A stretch of DNA of 45,955 nt from a virus: positions 1 to 45,955 of the IMG/VR virus record IMGVR_UViG_3300042453_000938; one strand, given 5' to 3'. The notes beneath the pieces were generated by a model. That model had not been told where the DNA came from. It saw nothing but the letters and a program-made list of their open reading frames with translations, and ran no database searches. Shown piece after piece: positions 8,215 through 37,933 of this stretch. A program made the position numbers and the translations under genes. Within the stretch, counting starts at the first letter, position 1. Each line of letters opens with the position of its first letter.

Positions 8215-11121
8215 ATGCCATACTCTTGCACCGTCGTATCATGCACGTTCAAGAACCTCTCCGCAGAGGACTTGGGCGTGAAGACGAATAGCAACAGCGA
8301 TGCCTCCATAGGCGCGAAGGTGCAGATGGAGTTGGAGTACACATCAAGCGAAGACATTGCGCCATCAAGGATACGGTTCAACCCAACGCTATTCACACCA
8401 TCGTTGCCGCTTGTTGACCCTGTCAGCACCATTGCGGGATATCAGGTTGAGGTTGATGCCGCAGCGATGATTGGAGATGTCATTGCATTGCCGTTTGCCA
8501 CGGGTTCGGCTTATGAAAGTTGCAATCAGAACGTAGAGGCGGAACTTGAGATACTCGACACAGACCGCGCTGTCATACGCTTCACGTTCGTGATGACAAT
8601 GGACTTGAGTGCGGCCATCAACGGCACATCATTGCCAAACGAGAAGCGGTTGCTTTCCGTTCATCGCTCTGCTGTGACGATGTTGCCCACAGCATCGCCA
8701 CAAAGCGTGTATCTCTTCGACAATCGTGGCGTGTATTCGTTCATCCGTTTCCAAAGCGCATCAGGCGAGTTCTTCAACCTACGGCATTGGCAACCTTACG
8801 AGTCGCGGTGGTATGCAAAGGGCTTGCCGAACAACACCGTCAATCCGCCACAAGCAGAACTATCAACAGGCTACGGGCATGTGTTCGAGTTGAAGCGCGG
8901 TGGGGAGGTTGTCACCACGTTGAGCGTGTATGAGCCTACGGAGGTGTCGCTGTACCTCGTTGACCAATCACCTTCGCTTGCCGTAGGACAGACGTTCTAC
9001 GCGTATTTGATTGACAATGCCGCAGGGAACAACCTCGCAACATTCCAACAGCAATACGGGTGCGAGACATACGGGAGCGAGGTTGAGTTCGGAACAACGA
9101 CCGATGGCGATGACCTTGGCGGCAATCTGATTGGCATGACCGCGTGCTATGATGCGGTCACGCATCTATCAACCCCTTCCATTCGTCTGCGCTTCAAGGT
9201 TGGCACAGCACTCGATGCTTCTCGCTCGTATTCAATCATCGTTGTCGTGTGCGGCATTCCGGACGTTGGCAACGACACGTTCACCAACTCGTTCATCCTG
9301 TACAACATCGCGGCCAACGGAGTTCCATCCGCTCCGCCATTGGACAGCACCCACTTTGAAGGCTCAATCAATGACTACAACACCGACAGCGGCACGGACA
9401 ATGTGATATCAACCGTGGTTGACCACTTGCGCTGTACCGTGCGCGTGAACCGAGCGGCATACGATGCGTTGCCGCAATCCGTATTGCTTGGTTCCACGTG
9501 GAACGATGGCATGCGCAGTATCGTTGTGAAGGTCATTGACGAAGCGACGAACCTCACGATATGGGAGAACACCTACACCAAGATTGGCGGTGTGTGGGGA
9601 GGCAACGGCACGAACATCGTACAGGAGGTGCTTGATGGGCCGATGAATGAGTACTCAATATGGCTTCACACGGCATACCCCAACATTGGCGGCAACCCCG
9701 ATTTCAGCAACGCAAGCATCAAGGTGCTGTGGGCCTTCGTTGTTGAGTTTCCGGATGTTGACAATTGGCGCGTGGAGTATCGTTATCCACAGCGCGTCCT
9801 TGTCAACGGCTACGGCAACTTCACGAAGGTCATTGAGAGCATTGAATTGATTGACTATCCTACGGGGATGCCGCTGACCAATCTATGCCAAGGCGACATA
9901 GCAATGGTCAAGGTCGTGCTTGACCAGACGCAAGACAACGATGTTGATTGGAACATCCGTGTGAAGTACGCCTACGAGCCATACGGGTTCGTCAGCAACA
10001 ACGATGTGCGGCCAAGCAACACTCCCGAAGAAGAGTCATACGCAGGGATGTTCGCACAACTCGACCAACCGGAGTTCAGCCTTGTTCCGGCAACCTTTGA
10101 GAACGTCGATGGTGTTCTGCAAGCCGCCTTCCTCTTTGATTACAGCAATGTGCCGATAGGTCAGAAGCCTTGCATCTACGTCATTGCCGAACCCGTTGAT
10201 GGCTTGTGTCCGGAGCCAATCATCAACCTTGCGGTGGCCGTAGATGACTGCATCAACAGCGTCTTCACCATCGAGATTGACGTAGCCAACAGCGAGGTAT
10301 TCATTGTCGAAGGCTTGGCGTACTCAATCAACAACGGGCCAGTCATCAATGATGTTTCCGGCCCGAACTTCTACATCATTGGGCCGTTCAATTGCACTGA
10401 CACCGTCAAGGTTGAGGTTATGCGTAGCGGTGACGGGGCCTGTCACTACGACCTTGGCTCATTCGCCAGCGGTTGTGGGCCATGTTGCGACTATCCGAAC
10501 ATGCCAACGATGACCAACGTGCTGTATTGGTGTACGGCTGACGAGCAAGCGGGTCTTGAGGCAGGGTCATCACCCGGAGACACGTTCCTGATACGCGACT
10601 TGCTCAACTCTTCACCTCCCGGTGCAACGCTGTTTGAGCAGAACACGGGCAACAAAGCAACGTGGAACGGCTCTTCGTGGGACATTGAGGTGCTTGCGCC
10701 CGGAACCGTGGTGTACATCACATCAGCAGGGTCAAGCATCAACGACTATGACAAGTACTTCGTTGTTCGCGGTGCGGCAAACGGCACGGCATTGTATCCA
10801 AGCGGCAAGTTCGCCCGTGAATGGCTCTATCCCGTGCGCGATGGCGATAGCGACCCCGCTGGCGGACACAAGGCAATGTCCATAAGCACCTACACGAACA
10901 TCTACGCGGATGAGAATGACTACAGCGAGTGCCGCGTTGGAACCATTCAAGTGTACTCTCCGTTGCTGTCGGTTTGGATTGACCTTGAAACCGCAAGCGA
11001 AGAGAACCTGATGACGGTCGGTGCAATAGATCACGACAACATCGACACCCGTATGGCGTGGTATGGTGGGCCAACGGGTACGTTCTTCCAAGGCTATTCA
11101 CGCGAACGCTTCTTTGTCTGA
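8215..11121 (+). CDS. Large tail tip/fibre-type structural protein
   Basis: 968 aa, beginning 2 bp after the previous stop. The sequence is almost entirely beta-type (frequent Val, Thr, Asn, Tyr and Gly with few long helices), suggesting several immunoglobulin- or carbohydrate-binding-like modules. A cysteine cluster CGPCCDYP lies near residue 755. The size, the position after the tape measure and tip genes, and the composition fit a tail-tip or receptor-recognition protein. No enzymatic motif was seen. I do not recognise the family. Confidence 0.5.
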   Translation: MPYSCTVVSCTFKNLSAEDLGVKTNSNSDASIGAKVQMELEYTSSEDIAPSRIRFNPTLFTPSLPLVDPVSTIAGYQVEVDAAAMIGDVIALPFATGSAYESCNQNVEAELEILDTDRAVIRFTFVMTMDLSAAINGTSLPNEKRLLSVHRSAVTMLPTASPQSVYLFDNRGVYSFIRFQSASGEFFNLRHWQPYESRWYAKGLPNNTVNPPQAELSTGYGHVFELKRGGEVVTTLSVYEPTEVSLYLVDQSPSLAVGQTFYAYLIDNAAGNNLATFQQQYGCETYGSEVEFGTTTDGDDLGGNLIGMTACYDAVTHLSTPSIRLRFKVGTALDASRSYSIIVVVCGIPDVGNDTFTNSFILYNIAANGVPSAPPLDSTHFEGSINDYNTDSGTDNVISTVVDHLRCTVRVNRAAYDALPQSVLLGSTWNDGMRSIVVKVIDEATNLTIWENTYTKIGGVWGGNGTNIVQEVLDGPMNEYSIWLHTAYPNIGGNPDFSNASIKVLWAFVVEFPDVDNWRVEYRYPQRVLVNGYGNFTKVIESIELIDYPTGMPLTNLCQGDIAMVKVVLDQTQDNDVDWNIRVKYAYEPYGFVSNNDVRPSNTPEEESYAGMFAQLDQPEFSLVPATFENVDGVLQAAFLFDYSNVPIGQKPCIYVIAEPVDGLCPEPIINLAVAVDDCINSVFTIEIDVANSEVFIVEGLAYSINNGPVINDVSGPNFYIIGPFNCTDTVKVEVMRSGDGACHYDLGSFASGCGPCCDYPNMPTMTNVLYWCTADEQAGLEAGSSPGDTFLIRDLLNSSPPGATLFEQNTGNKATWNGSSWDIEVLAPGTVVYITSAGSSINDYDKYFVVRGAANGTALYPSGKFAREWLYPVRDGDSDPAGGHKAMSISTYTNIYADENDYSECRVGTIQVYSPLLSVWIDLETASEENLMTVGAIDHDNIDTRMAWYGGPTGTFFQGYSRERFFV

Positions 11122-14955: not shown

Positions 14956-16797
14956 ATGTCCCTGTATCAACTCGTCAACGAGAACCAGCGCATAGCCGAA
15001 GATGGCGTGCGGCAGTTGCAAGGTCGCTTCAAGCGGCTTGAGCGCGACATGCTTTCTCAACTGAAGGAGTACCTACGCCAACTTCCAACGAAGGGCGGCA
15101 AGATTGTAATGGATGAGACCAGCACACGCGTGCTGAACCAACTCAATGGTGTGCTTGGTGAGACCTTGCGCCACAAGGATGTGCGTGATGCAATACGTGG
15201 CCTGTTGCCGGAGTTCGACAAGATTGCGGCCAACGTCATCACAATGCATGGCGAAGAGAGCGGGTTGAAAGTTTCGCAATCGTTGCTCACGGACACGCGC
15301 AACCGAATGGTGCAGATGACATCCGACAACATCATCTCCAGCGGTTACAACGCAAGGTTTGCTGACCCCGTGCGCAAGGTGTTATTCAATCACATCAATT
15401 TCGGGGCTGGCATCCTTGACACGGAGAAGGCATTGCGGACAATCATTGCGCCCACTGACGGCAATGGAGCATTGACGCGTTACGTTGGAGGTGTTGCGCG
15501 TGACTCGTTCCATCAGTACGAAGGACAGACGCATAAGCAGATTGCGGAACTCAACGGATTGAAGAATTGGAGGTATGTTGGGAACATCGTCACCACTACG
15601 CGACCGCAATGCAGAAGGTGGGTCGGCAAGGATATCATCCTTGGCTCTGAACTTGAGGACGAGGTGAGGTGGGCGCGAAACAATGGAAGCGGTTGGATAC
15701 CCGGAACAGATGTTGCGCTGTGGCCCATCAATCGCGGTGGCTATAACTGCCGTCACAAGGCGATACCAACACGAAGGGGCGAAGGAGGAAGGCCACAGCA
15801 ACAACCGACACAGCAACCACAACCCGCACCACAACCAACCCCTGCACCCGCGCCTACACCCGCTCCTACACCCGCGCCTGTGCCAGCCCCTGCGCCACCA
15901 GCAATGCCAAGGTTACAGCGCAGAACACCACTTCAACAGCCTGTCATACCTCAACCCGTAAACCAACAACAAACCGCACCTGCGGTAAGGCAATCGAACA
16001 AGCCGCAAATAGACCAAGAGAGGTTCTTGGGCGCACGCAACGAAGCAATGAATGCCGCCTACGCGGAAGCCTGTGCAAATCAAGACGGCATTGTTGATGT
16101 GATGCGGAAGAATAACACGGTACACGGGTTCTTGAAACCGGGAGAGGAATTGGGCTCCCGCAAACTCAAAGGCAAAGTTGAGAAAGGCAATCCGACCGCG
16201 ATTCATGGCACCCTCGGCAAAGCGAACGGAATGGCGATGATTAGTAAGGCGGGTGTTGTTACACGATTGCCCGATGACCACACGGTAATTCTCAAGGGTT
16301 ATGACAATGACATGGCCGAGTTTCAACGCGATGTGGAGGCATGGGGCAAGAAGGTCTCCAAAGGCGATTATTGGGTGTCTGGAGATGGCAATATATGGAT
16401 GGAAGGTAAGCATCTTGGCAGACGCGATAGGACAGGCAAACCAAGAATATGGAGCGCAAGCACCATTGGCAGACGAGTTGAGAAGAATGTAATAGGCACG
16501 GTGACTCACGAGAACGCGCACATCATACATTTTGAGGTGGACAATCCTGTTGTGGTTGCCGGGGAATGGAGTCCCCCCCTTATGGAGAAGCGAGCGCGGT
16601 TATGGGGAATAAATTTGGCTGACTCCCCAACGCTGTACGGAGAAACTAATTGGCATGAATTCTGGGCAGAGTCCTTTGCCTGTTACGTTCATGCTCCCGA
16701 ATGGTTCCGGAAGGAATATCCCAAAGCACATGGCTTCTTTGAGGATATGTTGAAGGCGTATGGCATAGACAAGAACACAATCACACAATACCGCTGA
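14956..16797 (+). CDS. MuF-type minor head protein fused to a zincin-like metallopeptidase
   Basis: 613 aa. Residues 1-275 form the MuF-like head-morphogenesis part: helical, ending with the family signature around QCRRWVGK and GGYNCRHKAIP. A linker of Pro/Ala/Thr/Gln repeats (about 283-320) follows. The C-terminal domain contains HENAH at 518-522, a zincin HExxH motif, and WHEFWAESFACY at 566-577, which resembles the E-x-x-x-E helix supplying the third zinc ligand in anthrax lethal factor-like gluzincins (E568 or E572). MuF proteins are packaged in the head, and C-terminal effector domains on them are known. The peptidase may be injected with the DNA or may mature capsid proteins. Confidence 0.75.
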   Translation: MSLYQLVNENQRIAEDGVRQLQGRFKRLERDMLSQLKEYLRQLPTKGGKIVMDETSTRVLNQLNGVLGETLRHKDVRDAIRGLLPEFDKIAANVITMHGEESGLKVSQSLLTDTRNRMVQMTSDNIISSGYNARFADPVRKVLFNHINFGAGILDTEKALRTIIAPTDGNGALTRYVGGVARDSFHQYEGQTHKQIAELNGLKNWRYVGNIVTTTRPQCRRWVGKDIILGSELEDEVRWARNNGSGWIPGTDVALWPINRGGYNCRHKAIPTRRGEGGRPQQQPTQQPQPAPQPTPAPAPTPAPTPAPVPAPAPPAMPRLQRRTPLQQPVIPQPVNQQQTAPAVRQSNKPQIDQERFLGARNEAMNAAYAEACANQDGIVDVMRKNNTVHGFLKPGEELGSRKLKGKVEKGNPTAIHGTLGKANGMAMISKAGVVTRLPDDHTVILKGYDNDMAEFQRDVEAWGKKVSKGDYWVSGDGNIWMEGKHLGRRDRTGKPRIWSASTIGRRVEKNVIGTVTHENAHIIHFEVDNPVVVAGEWSPPLMEKRARLWGINLADSPTLYGETNWHEFWAESFACYVHAPEWFRKEYPKAHGFFEDMLKAYGIDKNTITQYR

Positions 16798-32485: not shown

Positions 32486-32720
32486 AGGATGCCCCTATAC
32501 AATAAAAATTGACGTAAGCAACTTTATTTTTAGGTGTAGTTAAGAGTTTTGGGAAGGTCGGAAACCTCAATAAATACATAGTATATAGAGTGAGGCCCAT
32601 CTATAAGCCCATTCAACACAAGCATTAAACGGCAAATCCGTCTGAAAGGCCAGTAAATACAGGGAGAGAAAATTATTTTAGGTCGCACGCTTGTTTATTG
32701 CGGTATTAGCCCTACATTAG
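32486..32720. other. AT-rich intergenic segment
   Basis: No supported gene lies between 32486 and 33065. The first 235 bp are clearly richer in A/T than the rest of the genome (for example TACAATAAAAATTGACG, TTTATTTTTAGG, AATACATAGTATATAGAG, AAAATTATTTTAGG). There are TTGAC-like and TATA-like strings but no full promoter match. It could hold promoters for the 33-38 kb operon or serve as an unwinding region for replication. Confidence 0.5.
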
Positions 32721-32721
32721 G

Positions 32722-32744
32722 GCCGTTGTCGTCACGGCAACGGC
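32722..32744 (+). terminator. Hairpin GCCGTTG/CAACGGC with following CTCTTTA
   Basis: GCCGTTG at 32722-32728 pairs with CAACGGC at 32738-32744 across a 9-nt loop, followed by TCTTTAAAT. This resembles a rho-independent terminator with a weak T tract and could end the upstream operon, or be the first stem of the structured RNA that follows. Confidence 0.5.
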
Positions 32745-32765
32745 TCTTTAAATACTGTATCGCCC

Positions 32766-33034
32766 GACTAAACGAATGGGCCCCGCTGGCAGTAGCAGTG
32801 AATGCTCCGCCTTGCACGTAGACCACAGCGCAGATATCCTTGGAAACGTGCCCAGCCGTGGAGGGTTTAGTCAATGGGTGAGACAGGTTGGCCAATACGA
32901 GAATAGCGAACTCGTAGCTGATGCCGCTCCATCAAACCATATTAGGTGTGAGGCCATCAGCGGGATGAGAAAGTAGCAATCTACCATAGCGCAGTCAGGA
33001 AGAAAGTCAGGCGGTTCGAGTCCGCCTCTGCGCT
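32766..33034 (+). ncRNA. Candidate structured non-coding RNA with long-range pairing
   Basis: Several complementary segments nest in order: GACTAAA 32766-32772 with TTTAGTC 32866-32872; GCACGT 32814-32819 with ACGTGC 32846-32851; TACGAG with CTCGTA in 32902-32922; and GCTGATG with CATCAGC in 32920-32962. The loop of the GCACGT hairpin holds AGCGCAGA (32827-32834), perfectly complementary to TCTGCGCT at 33027-33034, which would form a pseudoknot. The 3' end is a tRNA-like T-arm. No open frame of quality lies here. The concentration of complementary segments suggests a functional RNA, but it was not folded by computer. Confidence 0.45.
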
Positions 33035-33036
33035 CA
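32988..33036 (+). ncRNA. tRNA-like minihelix 1 (acceptor stem plus T-arm)
   Basis: AGCGCAG (32988-32994) pairs with CTGCGCT (33028-33034). Between them are a 14-15-nt linker and a perfect T-arm: stem GGCGG/CCGCC at 33010-33014 and 33022-33026 with the loop TTCGAGT. CA follows the 3' strand. There is no D-arm and no anticodon arm, so it cannot decode codons. It ends 30 bp before the next start codon. A second element of the same design is at 34983-35029. Confidence 0.65.
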
Positions 33037-33065
33037 CAGGTCGCACAAGTGACCCAACAACGACA

Positions 33066-33581
33066 ATGAACAACCTCACAGCCCTCCTTCAGCAAGCCAC
33101 TCCTTCCATCGTGAAGCAGTACAAGAACCGCGTTCACTACACATACGAGAACCTCGTTCGTGTGATGGGCGGCACCAACTTCAACAGCGTCTACAACCGC
33201 AAGGAAATCTTTCAATTCCGCGCAATCGCTGGTTGCCTCATCAATCGTCAACAATCCAATTTGGGATGCGCACCATCTGACTACCGCGTTGATGAACAGC
33301 GCATCGATGAAGTTGCAGCACGCCATGCAGAAGCAACCATCATTGAATGGGCGATGAAGATTACCGCCAAGGTGAACGAGTTGACCAACCATGAAGTGTT
33401 CGCGATGGACTCAACCTCCTTCACGATCCGCGGCCATCGCAACGGCCATGCCGTTGTGATTGAGCAGCAGATGATTATCAATGTATCAAGCCGGGGCATC
33501 CTGTTCAATCAGTTCCCCGCCCGTATCTACGTCGATGGCAAGTTCATCAGCGAAGCCAAGTACAAGACGATGTTTGCATAA
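33066..33581 (+). CDS. Hypothetical protein (171 aa), first gene of the CA-leader operon
   Basis: The start MNNLTALLQQATPSIVKQYK follows a leader CCCAACAACGACA. The first half is helical with many basic residues; the second half is beta-rich (VFAMDSTSFTIRGHRNGHAV, FPARIYVDGKFI). It stands just downstream of tRNA-like minihelix 1. It does not overlap its neighbours, unlike genes outside this region. Family not recognised. Confidence 0.55.
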   Translation: MNNLTALLQQATPSIVKQYKNRVHYTYENLVRVMGGTNFNSVYNRKEIFQFRAIAGCLINRQQSNLGCAPSDYRVDEQRIDEVAARHAEATIIEWAMKITAKVNELTNHEVFAMDSTSFTIRGHRNGHAVVIEQQMIINVSSRGILFNQFPARIYVDGKFISEAKYKTMFA

Positions 33582-33615
33582 CCACCACCAGCACCAACCT
33601 CAACACCCACAAACA

Positions 33616-34056
33616 ATGGCAACTCAACTCCGCCTTCAAATTCGCATTGAAGCAACACAGGCCAACTCCTCAACGAGTGAGCGCAGGGCATATCGAGAAT
33701 TGATGCTCAACAGGCGTGGCCGTCACTCGTTGGATGCAACGATTGAAATGCTGACAGCCTTGCGTGATGCAACCAGCCTATACAACAGGGAAGCCTATAT
33801 CACGGTAGGCTCCTTGAACCAATCATACGCTGACGAGGCTAACGCGGCCAACAGCAACAGCGATGATGCTCAAGCCCCAATGCCGCGTCTGCAGAACAAT
33901 GCTGCAGTCCTCCGACGCCTCGATGAGGTTCACGCAATGTGCACCCGTCTGTTGATGCCGGAACCAATCAGAACCCTGCCAAACGCTGATGACGCTATGG
34001 CGGTCTTGAACCTTGACAACCTCGACCAAGCGTTCATCAACAACGAAGACATTTGA
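33616..34056 (+). CDS. Hypothetical helical protein (146 aa)
   Basis: From ATG 33616, preceded by CAACACCCACAAACA; the frame extends upstream to 33481, but that part is a low-quality overlap with the previous gene. Sequence is helical with Ala/Asn-rich middle (NAANSNSDDAQAPMP) and Leu-rich end (NNAAVLRRLDEVHAMCTRLL). It lies immediately before the amidoligase gene and could be a partner or substrate. No family recognised. Confidence 0.55.
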   Translation: MATQLRLQIRIEATQANSSTSERRAYRELMLNRRGRHSLDATIEMLTALRDATSLYNREAYITVGSLNQSYADEANAANSNSDDAQAPMPRLQNNAAVLRRLDEVHAMCTRLLMPEPIRTLPNADDAMAVLNLDNLDQAFINNEDI

Positions 34057-34096
34057 TTTGAATTGACCCAACAACACCCACAACACCCACAACAAC

Positions 34097-34975
34097 ATGA
34101 GCAACGCGAACAACCTTCCCGCACACGTAGAGTTCACCACACACACCGGGATGAACGGCTATCACAGCATGGTCGGACGTAGGATGGACAATGTGAACGA
34201 CAGCAACCCGTACCGCATTGGATTTGAGGTTGAGAAGATGAATGTCACCGCCAAGAGCCTGATTGAGGCTCACGAACCTTTGGCTCCCGGATGGGTGGCA
34301 GAGCGTGACGGTTCGCTTGATGGTGCTGGTGCTGGCGGCTATGAACTCATAAGCCCCGCCTACAACATCTGCTTCCAAGAGCGCATCAACACGGCACTCG
34401 AAGCAATGGCAACCTTCATTGATGCGGAACCCGCTAACAGAGCGCACGCCAATGCTTGTGGCGGACACATTCACATCAGCGACAGCCGTGTCACAGCGGA
34501 TGCCTTGGCTGACCGCATCAAGCCGTTGTTCCCATTGCTGATGGTGATGTATCCCACCCGCCTTCGCAACGCCTACGTGAATTGCAACAAGTTCGGCTAC
34601 ATGAAACGTCGGACTGGTAACAAGTATCAGCCGTTCTACATCCGCTCCAGCGAAATCGGCAGAACGATAGAGTTCCGCATCTTCCCGCACGTCAAGAGCG
34701 TGAAGCAACTCAAGTGGCGTATGCGCCTCATCTGTTACTTCCTCAACGCTGCGAAACACGGTTCATTGACCTTCGATTGGATGGCGAAGGAATTGATGAA
34801 CAGCGGAAGCGGCTTGTGCGCTATCCTGTCGGAAGTATACACCCAACAGGAACTGAAACAGAAGGCCACGATGTATTGGAGCGCAGCGGCATTCTTCTTC
34901 ACGGACAGGCCATTGCACGAGGTTGTACAGCCTGTGTTTGGCGCGGCACGGATGAACAGGACGCCAATTTACTGA
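34097..34975 (+). CDS. COOH-NH2 amidoligase (glutamine synthetase-like fold)
   Basis: 292 aa. The family motifs appear in order: GFEVEK at 42-47 (metal-binding E44, E46), ERDGSL at 69-74, GYELISP at 81-87, CGGHIHIS at 121-128 (H124, H126) and IEFRIFP at 191-197 (E192, R194), plus a helical region with RLRNAYVN. Amidoligases of this family use ATP to join a carboxylate to an amine, often making unusual peptides or amide tags. The gene lies about 700 bp upstream of a GATase/GGCT fusion, a known association in phages. The substrate is unknown: peptide, polyamine, or modified DNA base. Confidence 0.82.
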   Translation: MSNANNLPAHVEFTTHTGMNGYHSMVGRRMDNVNDSNPYRIGFEVEKMNVTAKSLIEAHEPLAPGWVAERDGSLDGAGAGGYELISPAYNICFQERINTALEAMATFIDAEPANRAHANACGGHIHISDSRVTADALADRIKPLFPLLMVMYPTRLRNAYVNCNKFGYMKRRTGNKYQPFYIRSSEIGRTIEFRIFPHVKSVKQLKWRMRLICYFLNAAKHGSLTFDWMAKELMNSGSGLCAILSEVYTQQELKQKATMYWSAAAFFFTDRPLHEVVQPVFGAARMNRTPIY

Positions 34976-34982
34976 CAAGGCT

Positions 34983-35029
34983 GGGGGCGATGGTCGGCCT
35001 CGCGGGGTTCGAGTCCCTGCGCCCCCTCA
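34983..35029 (+). ncRNA. tRNA-like minihelix 2 (acceptor stem plus T-arm)
   Basis: GGGGGCG (34983-34989) pairs perfectly with CGCCCCC (35020-35026). The linker is 13 nt, and the T-arm is CGGGG/CCCTG (35003-35007, 35015-35019; one G/T pair) with loop TTCGAGT. A discriminator-like T and CA follow. The D and anticodon arms are absent, as in minihelix 1, with the same loop sequence. It begins 7 bp after the amidoligase stop. The T-arm and acceptor form the minimal substrate recognised by RNase P and RNase Z in tRNA precursors. Confidence 0.68.
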
Positions 35030-35076
35030 ACAACACCGCACCGGACGGCATCCGGCAATCATCAACACCCACGACG

Positions 35077-35412
35077 ATGAAAGAACGCGAAGAGTACTTG
35101 CGCATACGGAAGCAAGCAACCTACGACCAAGGCGCACCCGATAGGCGTGAGCAATTCGATGCCCGTGTGCGCACGGCACTCGGTAGCGGAGTACACACAC
35201 CACAACGATGGGTTGAGGTGGCACGTGCAACGGCAGTACGTTGCGGACGATGTGCTGGCACGGGGATGTTCATCACGGGCATGGTGAACGGACAACCCGT
35301 TGGCAACGGAGGGCAATGCTTTCGTTGTCGCGGCAAGGGCAAGCAGACATACGCTGACGGCAAGCGCAACATGGCCTATGACCGTCACCTCATTGACACC
35401 ATCGGCCTCTAA
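35077..35412 (+). CDS. Small zinc-finger protein with DnaJ-type CxxCxGxG motifs
   Basis: 111 aa from ATG 35077. The frame is open upstream through minihelix 2 into the amidoligase gene, but translation probably begins here after the leader CAACACCCACGACG. Two motifs, CGRCAGTG and CFRCRGKG, near residues 71-97 form one DnaJ-like zinc centre. The N-terminal 60 residues are charged and helical (MKEREEYLRIRKQATYDQG). It may bind nucleic acid or be a chaperone-like adaptor. Confidence 0.6.
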   Translation: MKEREEYLRIRKQATYDQGAPDRREQFDARVRTALGSGVHTPQRWVEVARATAVRCGRCAGTGMFITGMVNGQPVGNGGQCFRCRGKGKQTYADGKRNMAYDRHLIDTIGL

Positions 35413-35613: not shown

Positions 35614-35637
35614 GCCCCCGGCAATCGTGCCGGGGGC
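35614..35637 (+). terminator. Strong GC hairpin (10-bp stem, 4-nt loop)
   Basis: GCCCCCGGCA at 35614-35623 pairs perfectly with TGCCGGGGGC at 35628-35637 around loop ATCG. AATCATC follows rather than a T run. It is placed between the 58-aa gene and the GATase/GGCT gene and may end transcription, stall polymerase, or mark an mRNA 3' end. Confidence 0.6.
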
Positions 35638-35659: not shown

Positions 35660-36673
35660 ATGTGCATCATCATCGACAACGCAGACAAGAAGACGATTGC
35701 CGAAGCAATCATTGAACGGAGCGCAAGCATCAACAAGGACGGCTACGGGCGCATTGACCTACGCACAGGCAAGGTCATCCGCACCCTCAACATTAACGAA
35801 GCCAAGCGTCTTTGCGCAGAGCGCATTCCAGCGGTGCATCACTTCAGGTACGCAACCGTAGGTGGCAAGGGCATCGACAACGTCCATCCCTTTGAATTGA
35901 GGGGCGGATGGTGGATGATGCAGAACGGCACGGTGAGCGGTCTAGTCACCCGCAAGGGAGAAAGCGATACGGCATGCCTTGCGCGGATGCTGGCGGACAA
36001 CGTGCATCACGACAACTACGCCAACGCATTGAGCATCTACGACTCAAGGTTCATTCTTGCGCACCCGGAACACGGAACCTTGCGCATCGGCAAGTGGCAC
36101 GAACACAACGGCATCTACTACAGCAAGGACAACGTGTTGCCGGAGGAGACAGAATTGCTTGCGGTGTACGGCACGTTGCGCAAGGGCTATCACAACCACA
36201 GGCTGATGCACGGGTCAAAGCACATAGGCAACGGATTTACGGCAGAGCGGCACAGGATGCACGGAGAGAGCATCCCATTCGTGTTGGAGGGCGATGAGGC
36301 AGGGGTGGGCGGCAATGTGCGCGTGGAGGTGTATGAGGTTGCGGCCACAGCGTTGAAGGGCGCGATTGATAGCCTTGAGGGTCATCCGAAGGTGTACACA
36401 CGGAGGAAGACGCACGTGGTGCTTGATGAAGGGCGCACGATTGAATGCTGGCTGTACTTCTACGACCATGCGCCTCTGCCCAACACGGTGTTCTACACGG
36501 ACTACTCTTTGCGCAGGGCGCATAGGGTCGTTCAGAACACTCCAAAGTATTCCACGTGGAACTTGTTCCGCAAGGCGACACCGAAGCCGCCCTGCCCAAC
36601 GTGCGACACGGCATTGGCCGACTATGACGATTGGTGGTATTGCGAGTCGTGCCACCACGCACGGGTGAAGTGA
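35660..36673 (+). CDS. Fusion: class II glutamine amidotransferase, GGCT domain, zinc ribbon
   Basis: 337 aa. ATG 35660 is chosen because Cys2 then becomes the N-terminal nucleophile of an Ntn-type class II amidotransferase. Supporting motifs are NKDGYG 25-30, HFRYATVG 61-68, HPF 76-78 and MQNG 87-90. Residues 166-275 form a gamma-glutamylcyclotransferase (AIG2-like) domain with VYGTLRKG at 169-176 and the catalytic-type glutamate E240 in LEGHPKVYTR. The C-terminus has a zinc ribbon with C312, C315, C328 and C331. It may supply ammonia or transfer groups for the amidoligase upstream, while the cyclotransferase removes glutamyl groups as 5-oxoproline. The triple fusion is unusual. Confidence 0.82.
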   Translation: MCIIIDNADKKTIAEAIIERSASINKDGYGRIDLRTGKVIRTLNINEAKRLCAERIPAVHHFRYATVGGKGIDNVHPFELRGGWWMMQNGTVSGLVTRKGESDTACLARMLADNVHHDNYANALSIYDSRFILAHPEHGTLRIGKWHEHNGIYYSKDNVLPEETELLAVYGTLRKGYHNHRLMHGSKHIGNGFTAERHRMHGESIPFVLEGDEAGVGGNVRVEVYEVAATALKGAIDSLEGHPKVYTRRKTHVVLDEGRTIECWLYFYDHAPLPNTVFYTDYSLRRAHRVVQNTPKYSTWNLFRKATPKPPCPTCDTALADYDDWWYCESCHHARVK

Positions 36674-37908: not shown

Positions 37909-37933
37909 GCGGGGCGGCATGGTGCCGCCCCGC
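37909..37933 (+). terminator. Rho-independent-type terminator after the DUF932 gene
   Basis: An 11-bp GC-rich stem: 37909-37919 (GCGGGGCGGCA) with 37923-37933 (TGCCGCCCCGC) around a 3-nt loop TGG. TTACTCTTTAA follows, a moderate T tract. It is the best intrinsic terminator seen in the window and separates the CA-leader operon from the small-gene region. Confidence 0.75.

Follow-up and report, generated by a model that had tools for sequence, protein, structure and literature searches.

Two tRNA-like minihelices in a phage operon

The DNA examined here, called the window below, is the whole of the 45,955-base virus record IMGVR_UViG_3300042453_000938 from IMG/VR. The window is a tailed phage, as is evident from its terminase and portal proteins, and by our own reading of its open reading frames (ORFs) the + strand carries its likely genes. 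The subject of this study is a pair of tRNA-like minihelices, each made of an acceptor stem and a T-arm, which an initial annotation had noticed in non-coding gaps of one operon, and for which it had offered several explanations, namely cleavage punctuation of a polycistronic mRNA, decoys, aminoacylation substrates or a new RNA class. Both minihelices indeed lie in such gaps, on the same strand as the ORFs to either side. The first, minihelix #1 (32988..33037, + strand), lies at the far end of a 580-nt gap, which is followed by a 171-aa gene without known function (33066..33581, + strand; start codon 33066). The second, minihelix #2 (34983..35030, + strand), starts 8 nt past the stop codon of an amidoligase-like gene (34097..34975, + strand; 292 aa; Pfam Amidoligase_2, E 0.0013, a match below the cut-off); from its end it is about 46 nt to 35077, the next likely start, which belongs to a 111-aa protein with CxxC repeats (35077..35412, + strand). 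Further downstream lies a GATase/GGACT gene (35660..36673, + strand; Pfam PF06094, E 4.2e-19), for which the ATG at 35660 was used as the start, the ORF listing having a GTG at 35627. The combination of an amidoligase gene and, a few genes further along, a fused GATase/GGACT protein, which serves as anchor, is called the module here; it is also found in MW202828 and in phage C75C1 (OQ984151), and the amidoligase-like gene of the window was aligned with its MW202828 homologue, which likewise precedes a GGACT gene.

Minihelix #2 is the more regular of the two: its acceptor (34983-34989/35020-35026; GGGGGCG and CGCCCCC) encloses a 13-nt linker beginning with ATGGT (34990-35002) and a T-arm (35003-35019; CGGGG-TTCGAGT-CCCTG, with one G.T pair), and is followed by T-C-A, in which T73 is 35027 and C74 is 35028. 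In minihelix #1, AGCGCAG and CTGCGCT form the acceptor (32988-32994/33028-33034), and between them lie a 15-nt linker (32995-33009, with a GG at 32998-32999), the T-arm (33010-33026; GGCGG-TTCGAGT-CCGCC) and an extra T (33027); CAC follows. The pairing first described thus stands for minihelix #2 and for both loops, but not entirely for minihelix #1, where, because of the extra T, the strict tRNA register gives six acceptor pairs (GCGCAG/CTGCGC), a T.T mismatch at 7-66, and T73 (33034) opposite A-1, with C74 at 33035.

The existence of the two elements, as claimed initially, is beyond chance in pairing, T-loop and architecture. When the forward strand of the window was scanned for 5/5 T-stem pairs, 7/7 acceptor pairs and a linker shorter than about 33 nt, only these two matched, and 0 of 20 first-order Markov shuffles gave any match. 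In minimum free energy (MFE) folds, the T-arm/acceptor stack forms in both, with MFE z-scores of -2.16 for minihelix #1 and -0.41 for minihelix #2, so folding energy alone would have missed the latter. Both carry the T-arm with a TTCRANY loop on a 7-bp acceptor that is typical of tRNA (RF00005), minihelix #1 with a 1-nt register shift, and both have a 13-15-nt linker in place of the D-arm and anticodon arm. The absence of these arms, also an initial claim, agrees with the 0 genes called by ARAGORN in the window and with Rfam, in which nothing in the window, the tRNA model included, reached the gathering threshold.

At a relaxed threshold, minihelix #2 matched the Rfam mascRNA-menRNA model (RF01684) from end to end (33.4 bits, E 0.00026; gathering score 42.5), and minihelix #1 gave no match to it even then. 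mascRNA/menRNA is a tRNA-like element in a long RNA that is cut by RNase P and RNase Z; it is a eukaryotic non-coding RNA, however, the fit is below the gathering score, and no homology is implied. An exact-pattern scan of viral contigs for minihelix #2 found none, and BLAST of both minihelices against cultured phages gave partial matches only, several of them under tRNA genes. Larger RNAs were also considered. A full tRNA with an intron, a permuted tRNA or a transfer-messenger RNA (tmRNA) gave chance-level calls with the intron, relaxed and tmRNA options of ARAGORN, and the sole intron call at default stringency that ended at minihelix #2 needed a 2.9-kb intron across coding genes. A ribozyme like that of hepatitis delta virus (HDV), which has a similar order of stems, was set aside in view of the lack of any Rfam match and the conserved T-loop.

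Relatives in other phages and hammerheads in the same gaps

An alignment search with the GGACT protein yielded 55 viral and 3 bacterial loci, and a scan of these 58 loci for tRNA-like stacks found many compact minihelices, several with an ATGGT in the linker like that of minihelix #2. For 50 of the records, the larger part of the sequence (2,401,222 bases in all) was scanned on both strands, which gave 14 matches with linkers up to 30 nt, of which 11 had linkers of 10-13 nt; one shuffle of the same DNA gave 4 matches with linkers up to 30 nt. The other three matches were in G044 (6-nt linker, apparently part of a longer tRNA-like element), G029 (29 nt) and G051 (18 nt). Since MAFFT misregistered several acceptor strands, a cleanly aligning subset was chosen, and the covariance model R1 was therefore built from a selected 9 of the 14 copies in the alignment (which also held the two of the window), these nine being from other phages and none from the window. 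On 1.29 Mb, R1 recovered minihelix #2 at 24.0 bits (E 0.0066) and matched minihelix #1 at 32989-33037 with 18.8 bits, so that both copies are found with a model to which neither contributed. R1 also brought up copies not seen before: G055 has one of 38.4 bits, G048 one of 31.7 bits, and G022 a weak one of 17.4 bits. As a bacterial control, R1 was run on 198 genomes from the phylum to which G064 belongs (G064 being the genome with locus L105, a metagenome-assembled genome (MAG) titled Cytophagales), and 7 of them gave a match at E<=0.01; by eye, five are ordinary tRNA 3' halves, one resembles a tmRNA end, and one (L251) is a true compact copy. The L251 copy sits in a phage head-protein operon with no module within the 3 kb read, which suggests that the class can occur independently of the amidoligase module.

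The members share a consensus of a 6-7-bp acceptor, a 10-14-nt linker with an invariant GG, a 5-bp T-stem, a TTCGANT loop and N73-C74. The linker GG and C74, neither of which was required by the scan that found the elements, are present in all 14 aligned copies, both window copies included, and C74 is present in 34/34 printed tRNA-like matches when two spurious rows with 94-nt linkers (L118 and L140) are left out. The linker is thus not featureless but keeps a GG common to the whole class. In tRNA, the elbow is made by a GG and the T-loop through G18-Psi55 and G19-C56, and by analogy the GG of the class probably corresponds to G18-G19 of the D-loop, forming an elbow with the T-loop. In contrast to these constant parts, acceptor sequences differ freely, position 73 varies (T, G, A), and a full encoded GCCA end is seen in two copies. 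The check named with the initial annotation, by which a lack of compensatory base changes in homologous phages would refute the claim, came out in its favour, with such changes in syntenic copies. For example, between G023/G024 and L074 an acceptor pair changes from A-U to G-C and one T-stem pair appears as G.U, A-U and G-C, between G062 and G063 a U-A becomes G-C, and directly after the GGACT gene four different, still paired acceptors occur in G036, G045, G048 and G055. Judged from these shared features, both minihelices of the window are copies of an apparently undescribed RNA class; a search of the open-licence literature found no description of such elements.

The placement of the copies is also regular. 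In the 50 records, every one of the 11 copies whose linker has 10-13 nt is on the module strand, at a distance of -4001 to +1162 from where GGACT starts, a zone that makes up close to 11% of the DNA scanned; the chance figure for this clustering, 1.8e-12, should be read with care, as it was calculated with 12 elements, with bounds set after viewing the data and with related records. Ten of these 11 overlap no same-strand ORF of at least 60 aa, the exception being G036 with two short ATG/GTG/TTG frames. In most copies the element is separated from the upstream stop codon by 12-31 nt and from the start that follows by 19-90 nt, apart from a stop 88 nt before in G015 and a start about 178 nt after in G062 and G063. 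The loci also hold a second set of tRNA-like genes (L123, L146, L148, L151, L154, L177, L179, L192, L197, L218 and others), mostly with the acceptor AGTCAGG/CCTGACT or a near variant and 18-77-nt interiors, frequently at 3.4-5.4 kb on the downstream side of GGACT; in many, a normal anticodon arm seems to be absent, and ARAGORN called only 3 genes in the 58 loci. Two further tRNA-like places were noted: near 9511 on the minus strand of L039, a 161-kb phage, a stack with a perfect 7-bp acceptor, an encoded GCCA end and a 100-nt interior drew no confident tRNA call, and near 16009 on the minus strand of L047 there is, by eye, a tRNA 3' half without a 5' half, perhaps a phage attachment site.

The same gaps in related phages often carry hammerheads. 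A strict search for type III hammerheads gave 68 matches in 34 of the 50 records, all 68 on the gene strand, and 0 in shuffled DNA; 66 lie between -4841 and +1573 of GGACT, and the remaining two, in G033, are that near only if the record is circular. They have the core CUGANGA...GAAA with stems I-III and match the RF00008 model of Rfam, which had 3 matches at gathering when run on 24 loci and, on 5 loci, 12 at E<=0.001, all of these 12 on the + strand. In the gap after the amidoligase gene, 43 informative records hold a hammerhead in 25 cases, a tRNA-like element in 5 (four compact and one with a 29-nt linker), neither in 13 and both in 0. In the gap after GGACT, among 48 records, there are 10 hammerheads and 4 minihelices (two found by script and two by R1), and none has both. 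Minihelix #2 sits in the after-amidoligase slot that ribozymes use; minihelix #1 sits in neither slot. Two hairpin-hammerhead units also accompany the module on the Cytophagales MAG contig (L105:90 and L105:2308), a hint at Bacteroidota hosts.

Upstream of the minihelices stands a hairpin, most often GTGTCTTYAAAGACAC, and the sequence order is stop codon, hairpin, element. Among 16 copies from other phages, 14 are preceded by a hairpin with at least 6 bp that ends no more than 6 nt (0-6 nt) ahead of the minihelix (control mean 0.42). Of the 68 hammerheads, 63 likewise have an upstream hairpin, here with at least 5 bp, and the median distance to their cut is 9 nt. In both designs the expected cut would therefore fall right after a hairpin whose start is at the stop codon or close to it. 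On the module strand, GTGTC-N6-GACAC is present at 419 places, and 46 of the 50 records contain it; near the module a hammerhead core often follows. The observation of palindromic hairpins takes in L043 besides the 50 records, and MW202828 repeats GTGTCGTTAACGACAC, mostly between genes.

Putative cut sites and competing readings

The best reading of this comparison is that the gaps hold interchangeable intercistronic RNA cut sites, which would be cut either by themselves (hammerhead) or by the host (minihelix; RNase P). Among the options first proposed, cleavage punctuation is favoured, with elements on the gene strand, between cistrons, showing compensatory changes and placed in slots that hold hammerheads in sister phages. 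From these sequence comparisons, we put the probability that the minihelices are cis-acting cut sites in a polycistronic phage mRNA at roughly 70%; they probably mark where the host cuts a long phage message into single-gene pieces. The broader claim, that they are natural minimal tRNAs of about 45 nt without an anticodon and a new RNA class interchangeable with hammerheads as mRNA cut marks, is in our judgment slightly better than an even bet.

In the proposed mechanism, each minihelix would fold as a minimal tRNA, with an acceptor/T-arm stack of about 12 layers followed by N73-C74, and the linker GG would probably close the T-loop as G18-G19 do at the tRNA elbow. The host's RNase P would cleave on the 5' side of the acceptor, only a few nucleotides past the upstream stop codon. 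A second cut, following N73, may come from a 3' tRNA nuclease, and C74 would suit the contact of a tRNA 3' end with RNase P. Cutting would free the upstream and downstream mRNAs and an RNA of about 45 nt, and the genes of the amidoligase/GGACT operon would thereby be translated separately, each mRNA with a stability of its own. The same role in the gaps of related phages would fall to a type III hammerhead that cuts itself, and the hairpin that usually precedes its cut could cap the new 3' end.

Several known systems resemble this arrangement. In mitochondria, tRNAs punctuate transcripts. The phage elements would likewise use tRNA structures as cut marks, and reduced tRNAs exist there too, namely the armless mitochondrial tRNAs (PMC4919913); for RNase P the D-loop seems dispensable (PMC4919913). 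Unlike mitochondrial tRNAs, however, the minihelix has no anticodon and sits in phage operons. An acceptor with a T-stem-loop is a known model substrate of RNase P (AT1 and pMini; PMC11143913), almost identical in architecture to the phage minihelices, but AT1 and pMini are laboratory constructs, whereas the phage minihelices are natural, keep a D-loop-like GG and often have a mismatch at 7-66. For clustered intergenic hammerheads in phages and prophages, Perreault and colleagues proposed that they yield separate mRNAs for neighbouring genes, and cutting of clustered prophage hammerheads was shown in vitro and in E. coli (PMC3088659). The minihelices occupy the same kind of slot, but the hammerheads cut themselves, whereas a minihelix is no ribozyme and would need a host enzyme; a tRNA-like substitute for hammerheads is not described in the passages of that paper that were read. 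Theta (HDV-like) ribozymes adjoin tRNAs in phages of Bacteroidota and Bacillota and combine ribozymes with tRNA processing (PMC10879173); those ribozymes are linked to real tRNAs, whereas here the tRNA-like part replaces the ribozyme between protein genes.

Some findings weigh against the reading as cut sites. Minihelix #1 is the weaker member, with an E of only 0.21 under R1. Neither window copy has an upstream hairpin of at least 6 bp: minihelix #2 has none upstream, and minihelix #1 has only a weak 4-bp GTAG-CAAT-CTAC, seen by eye where the script chose another. No hammerhead was found in the window phage. With neither strong upstream hairpins nor hammerheads in this phage, the case for the two window copies rests on class membership and on the slot of minihelix #2. 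Orthologues of the window minihelices were not found either, as the close relatives found were two partial contigs (76 and 67% identity over the 1197-aa protein), neither of which covers 30-38 kb of the window, and relatives of the 171-aa gene have no minihelix nearby. The exclusion between hammerhead and minihelix is modest after the amidoligase gene (P 0.009 assuming independence, and the records are not independent) and not significant after GGACT (P 0.38). Across the 18 matches that were aligned, the paired share of pair cells is 93.3% compared with a shuffle mean of 56.6%, and 11 of 12 pairs change on both sides, but these counts are partly circular because the scan required pairing, and the syntenic copies are the better evidence. 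Finally, 7-66 is unpaired in 12 of the 18 copies, which is unusual for a tRNA-derived substrate of RNase P.

Among the alternatives, the one that survives best, though still improbable, is that the elements are merely structured 5' or 3' ends that stay uncut and shield against exonucleases or tune the translation of the next gene. The stable stems beside stop codons, which in most copies stand 19-90 nt ahead of the start that follows, would suit such a function; a plain hairpin would suffice for it, however, and the conserved T-loop, GG and C74, as well as the exchange with a self-cleaving ribozyme, would be left unexplained. We consider it more doubtful still that a trans-acting mini-tRNA is matured, CCA-tailed and charged to feed an amino acid into the amidoligase/GATase/GGACT pathway. 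The location of all copies with 10-13-nt linkers near the module in the 50 records, the presence of C74 and the full encoded GCCA of two copies agree with it, but the varying acceptors and position 73 leave no single synthetase identity, a hammerhead replaces the element in sister phages, and one strong copy lies in a head-protein operon with no module in the 3 kb read. Amidoligases are, moreover, thought to use ATP and free substrates. Decayed tRNA genes or leftovers of attachment sites are very unlikely: the T-arm and acceptor 3' strand do have matches in phage DNA, several of which are the 3' ends of tRNAs, and odd tRNA-like genes occur nearby in relatives, but the acceptor 5' strand is retained and co-varies, GG and C74 are invariant, the linker stays at 10-14 nt in most copies, and the elements always lie on the gene strand in tight gaps. 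Decoys for a host defence acting on tRNA, or for RNase P itself, are the least credible, because although the elements carry only the recognition half of a tRNA, a genome has just one or two of them, in gaps where hammerheads also occur, and there is no anticodon for an anticodon nuclease to cut. The decoy and aminoacylation options of the initial annotation gained no positive support, the latter being opposed by the same variation in acceptors and position 73.

If the elements are indeed cut sites, a phage could choose between a self-cut and a host-dependent cut by RNase P at one gene border, and the 3' ends of phage mRNAs would be sensitive to the tRNA-processing capacity of the host. Punctuation by tRNA of the mitochondrial type would then also separate the protein genes of phages, by means of a tRNA-like element that is among the smallest natural ones, and the replacement of a ribozyme and a host-enzyme site by each other at one position would amount to a natural experiment. 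The R1 consensus could serve as a handle in the search for cut mRNAs in uncultured phages, and the elements would offer a test of the minimal RNase P substrate in nature.

Neighbouring features of the window

Each minihelix is followed by a small hairpin on the + strand before the next start codon: GGTCG-CACAAG-TGACC (33039..33054) after minihelix #1, seen by eye and also paired in the fold, and CCGGA-CGGCA-TCCGG (35041..35055) after minihelix #2, seen by eye. Strong hairpins of the window lie at 35614-35637 and 37909-37933, the former (35614..35637, + strand) being a 10-bp intercistronic hairpin directly before the GGACT gene. The gap at 32600-33060 ahead of minihelix #1 folds modestly better than shuffles (z -2.43), and a larger structured RNA or leader may sit here. 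A longer RNA that ends in minihelix #1 and pairs with GCGCAGA near 32829 is possible by eye, but there is no Rfam match at that place and the z-score is modest.

The terminase of the window phage has its top match among cultured phages in a Bacteroides phage (27% identity), and a prophage search with this terminase, aimed at a host, gave none. Toward the end of the window, 41431-45589 is likely a DNA hypermodification island, with a ParB-like protein, an amino acid:DNA transferase (ADDT), an FAD oxidoreductase (weak), an FkbM methyltransferase, a P-loop protein (weak) and a Tet/JBP-type oxygenase.

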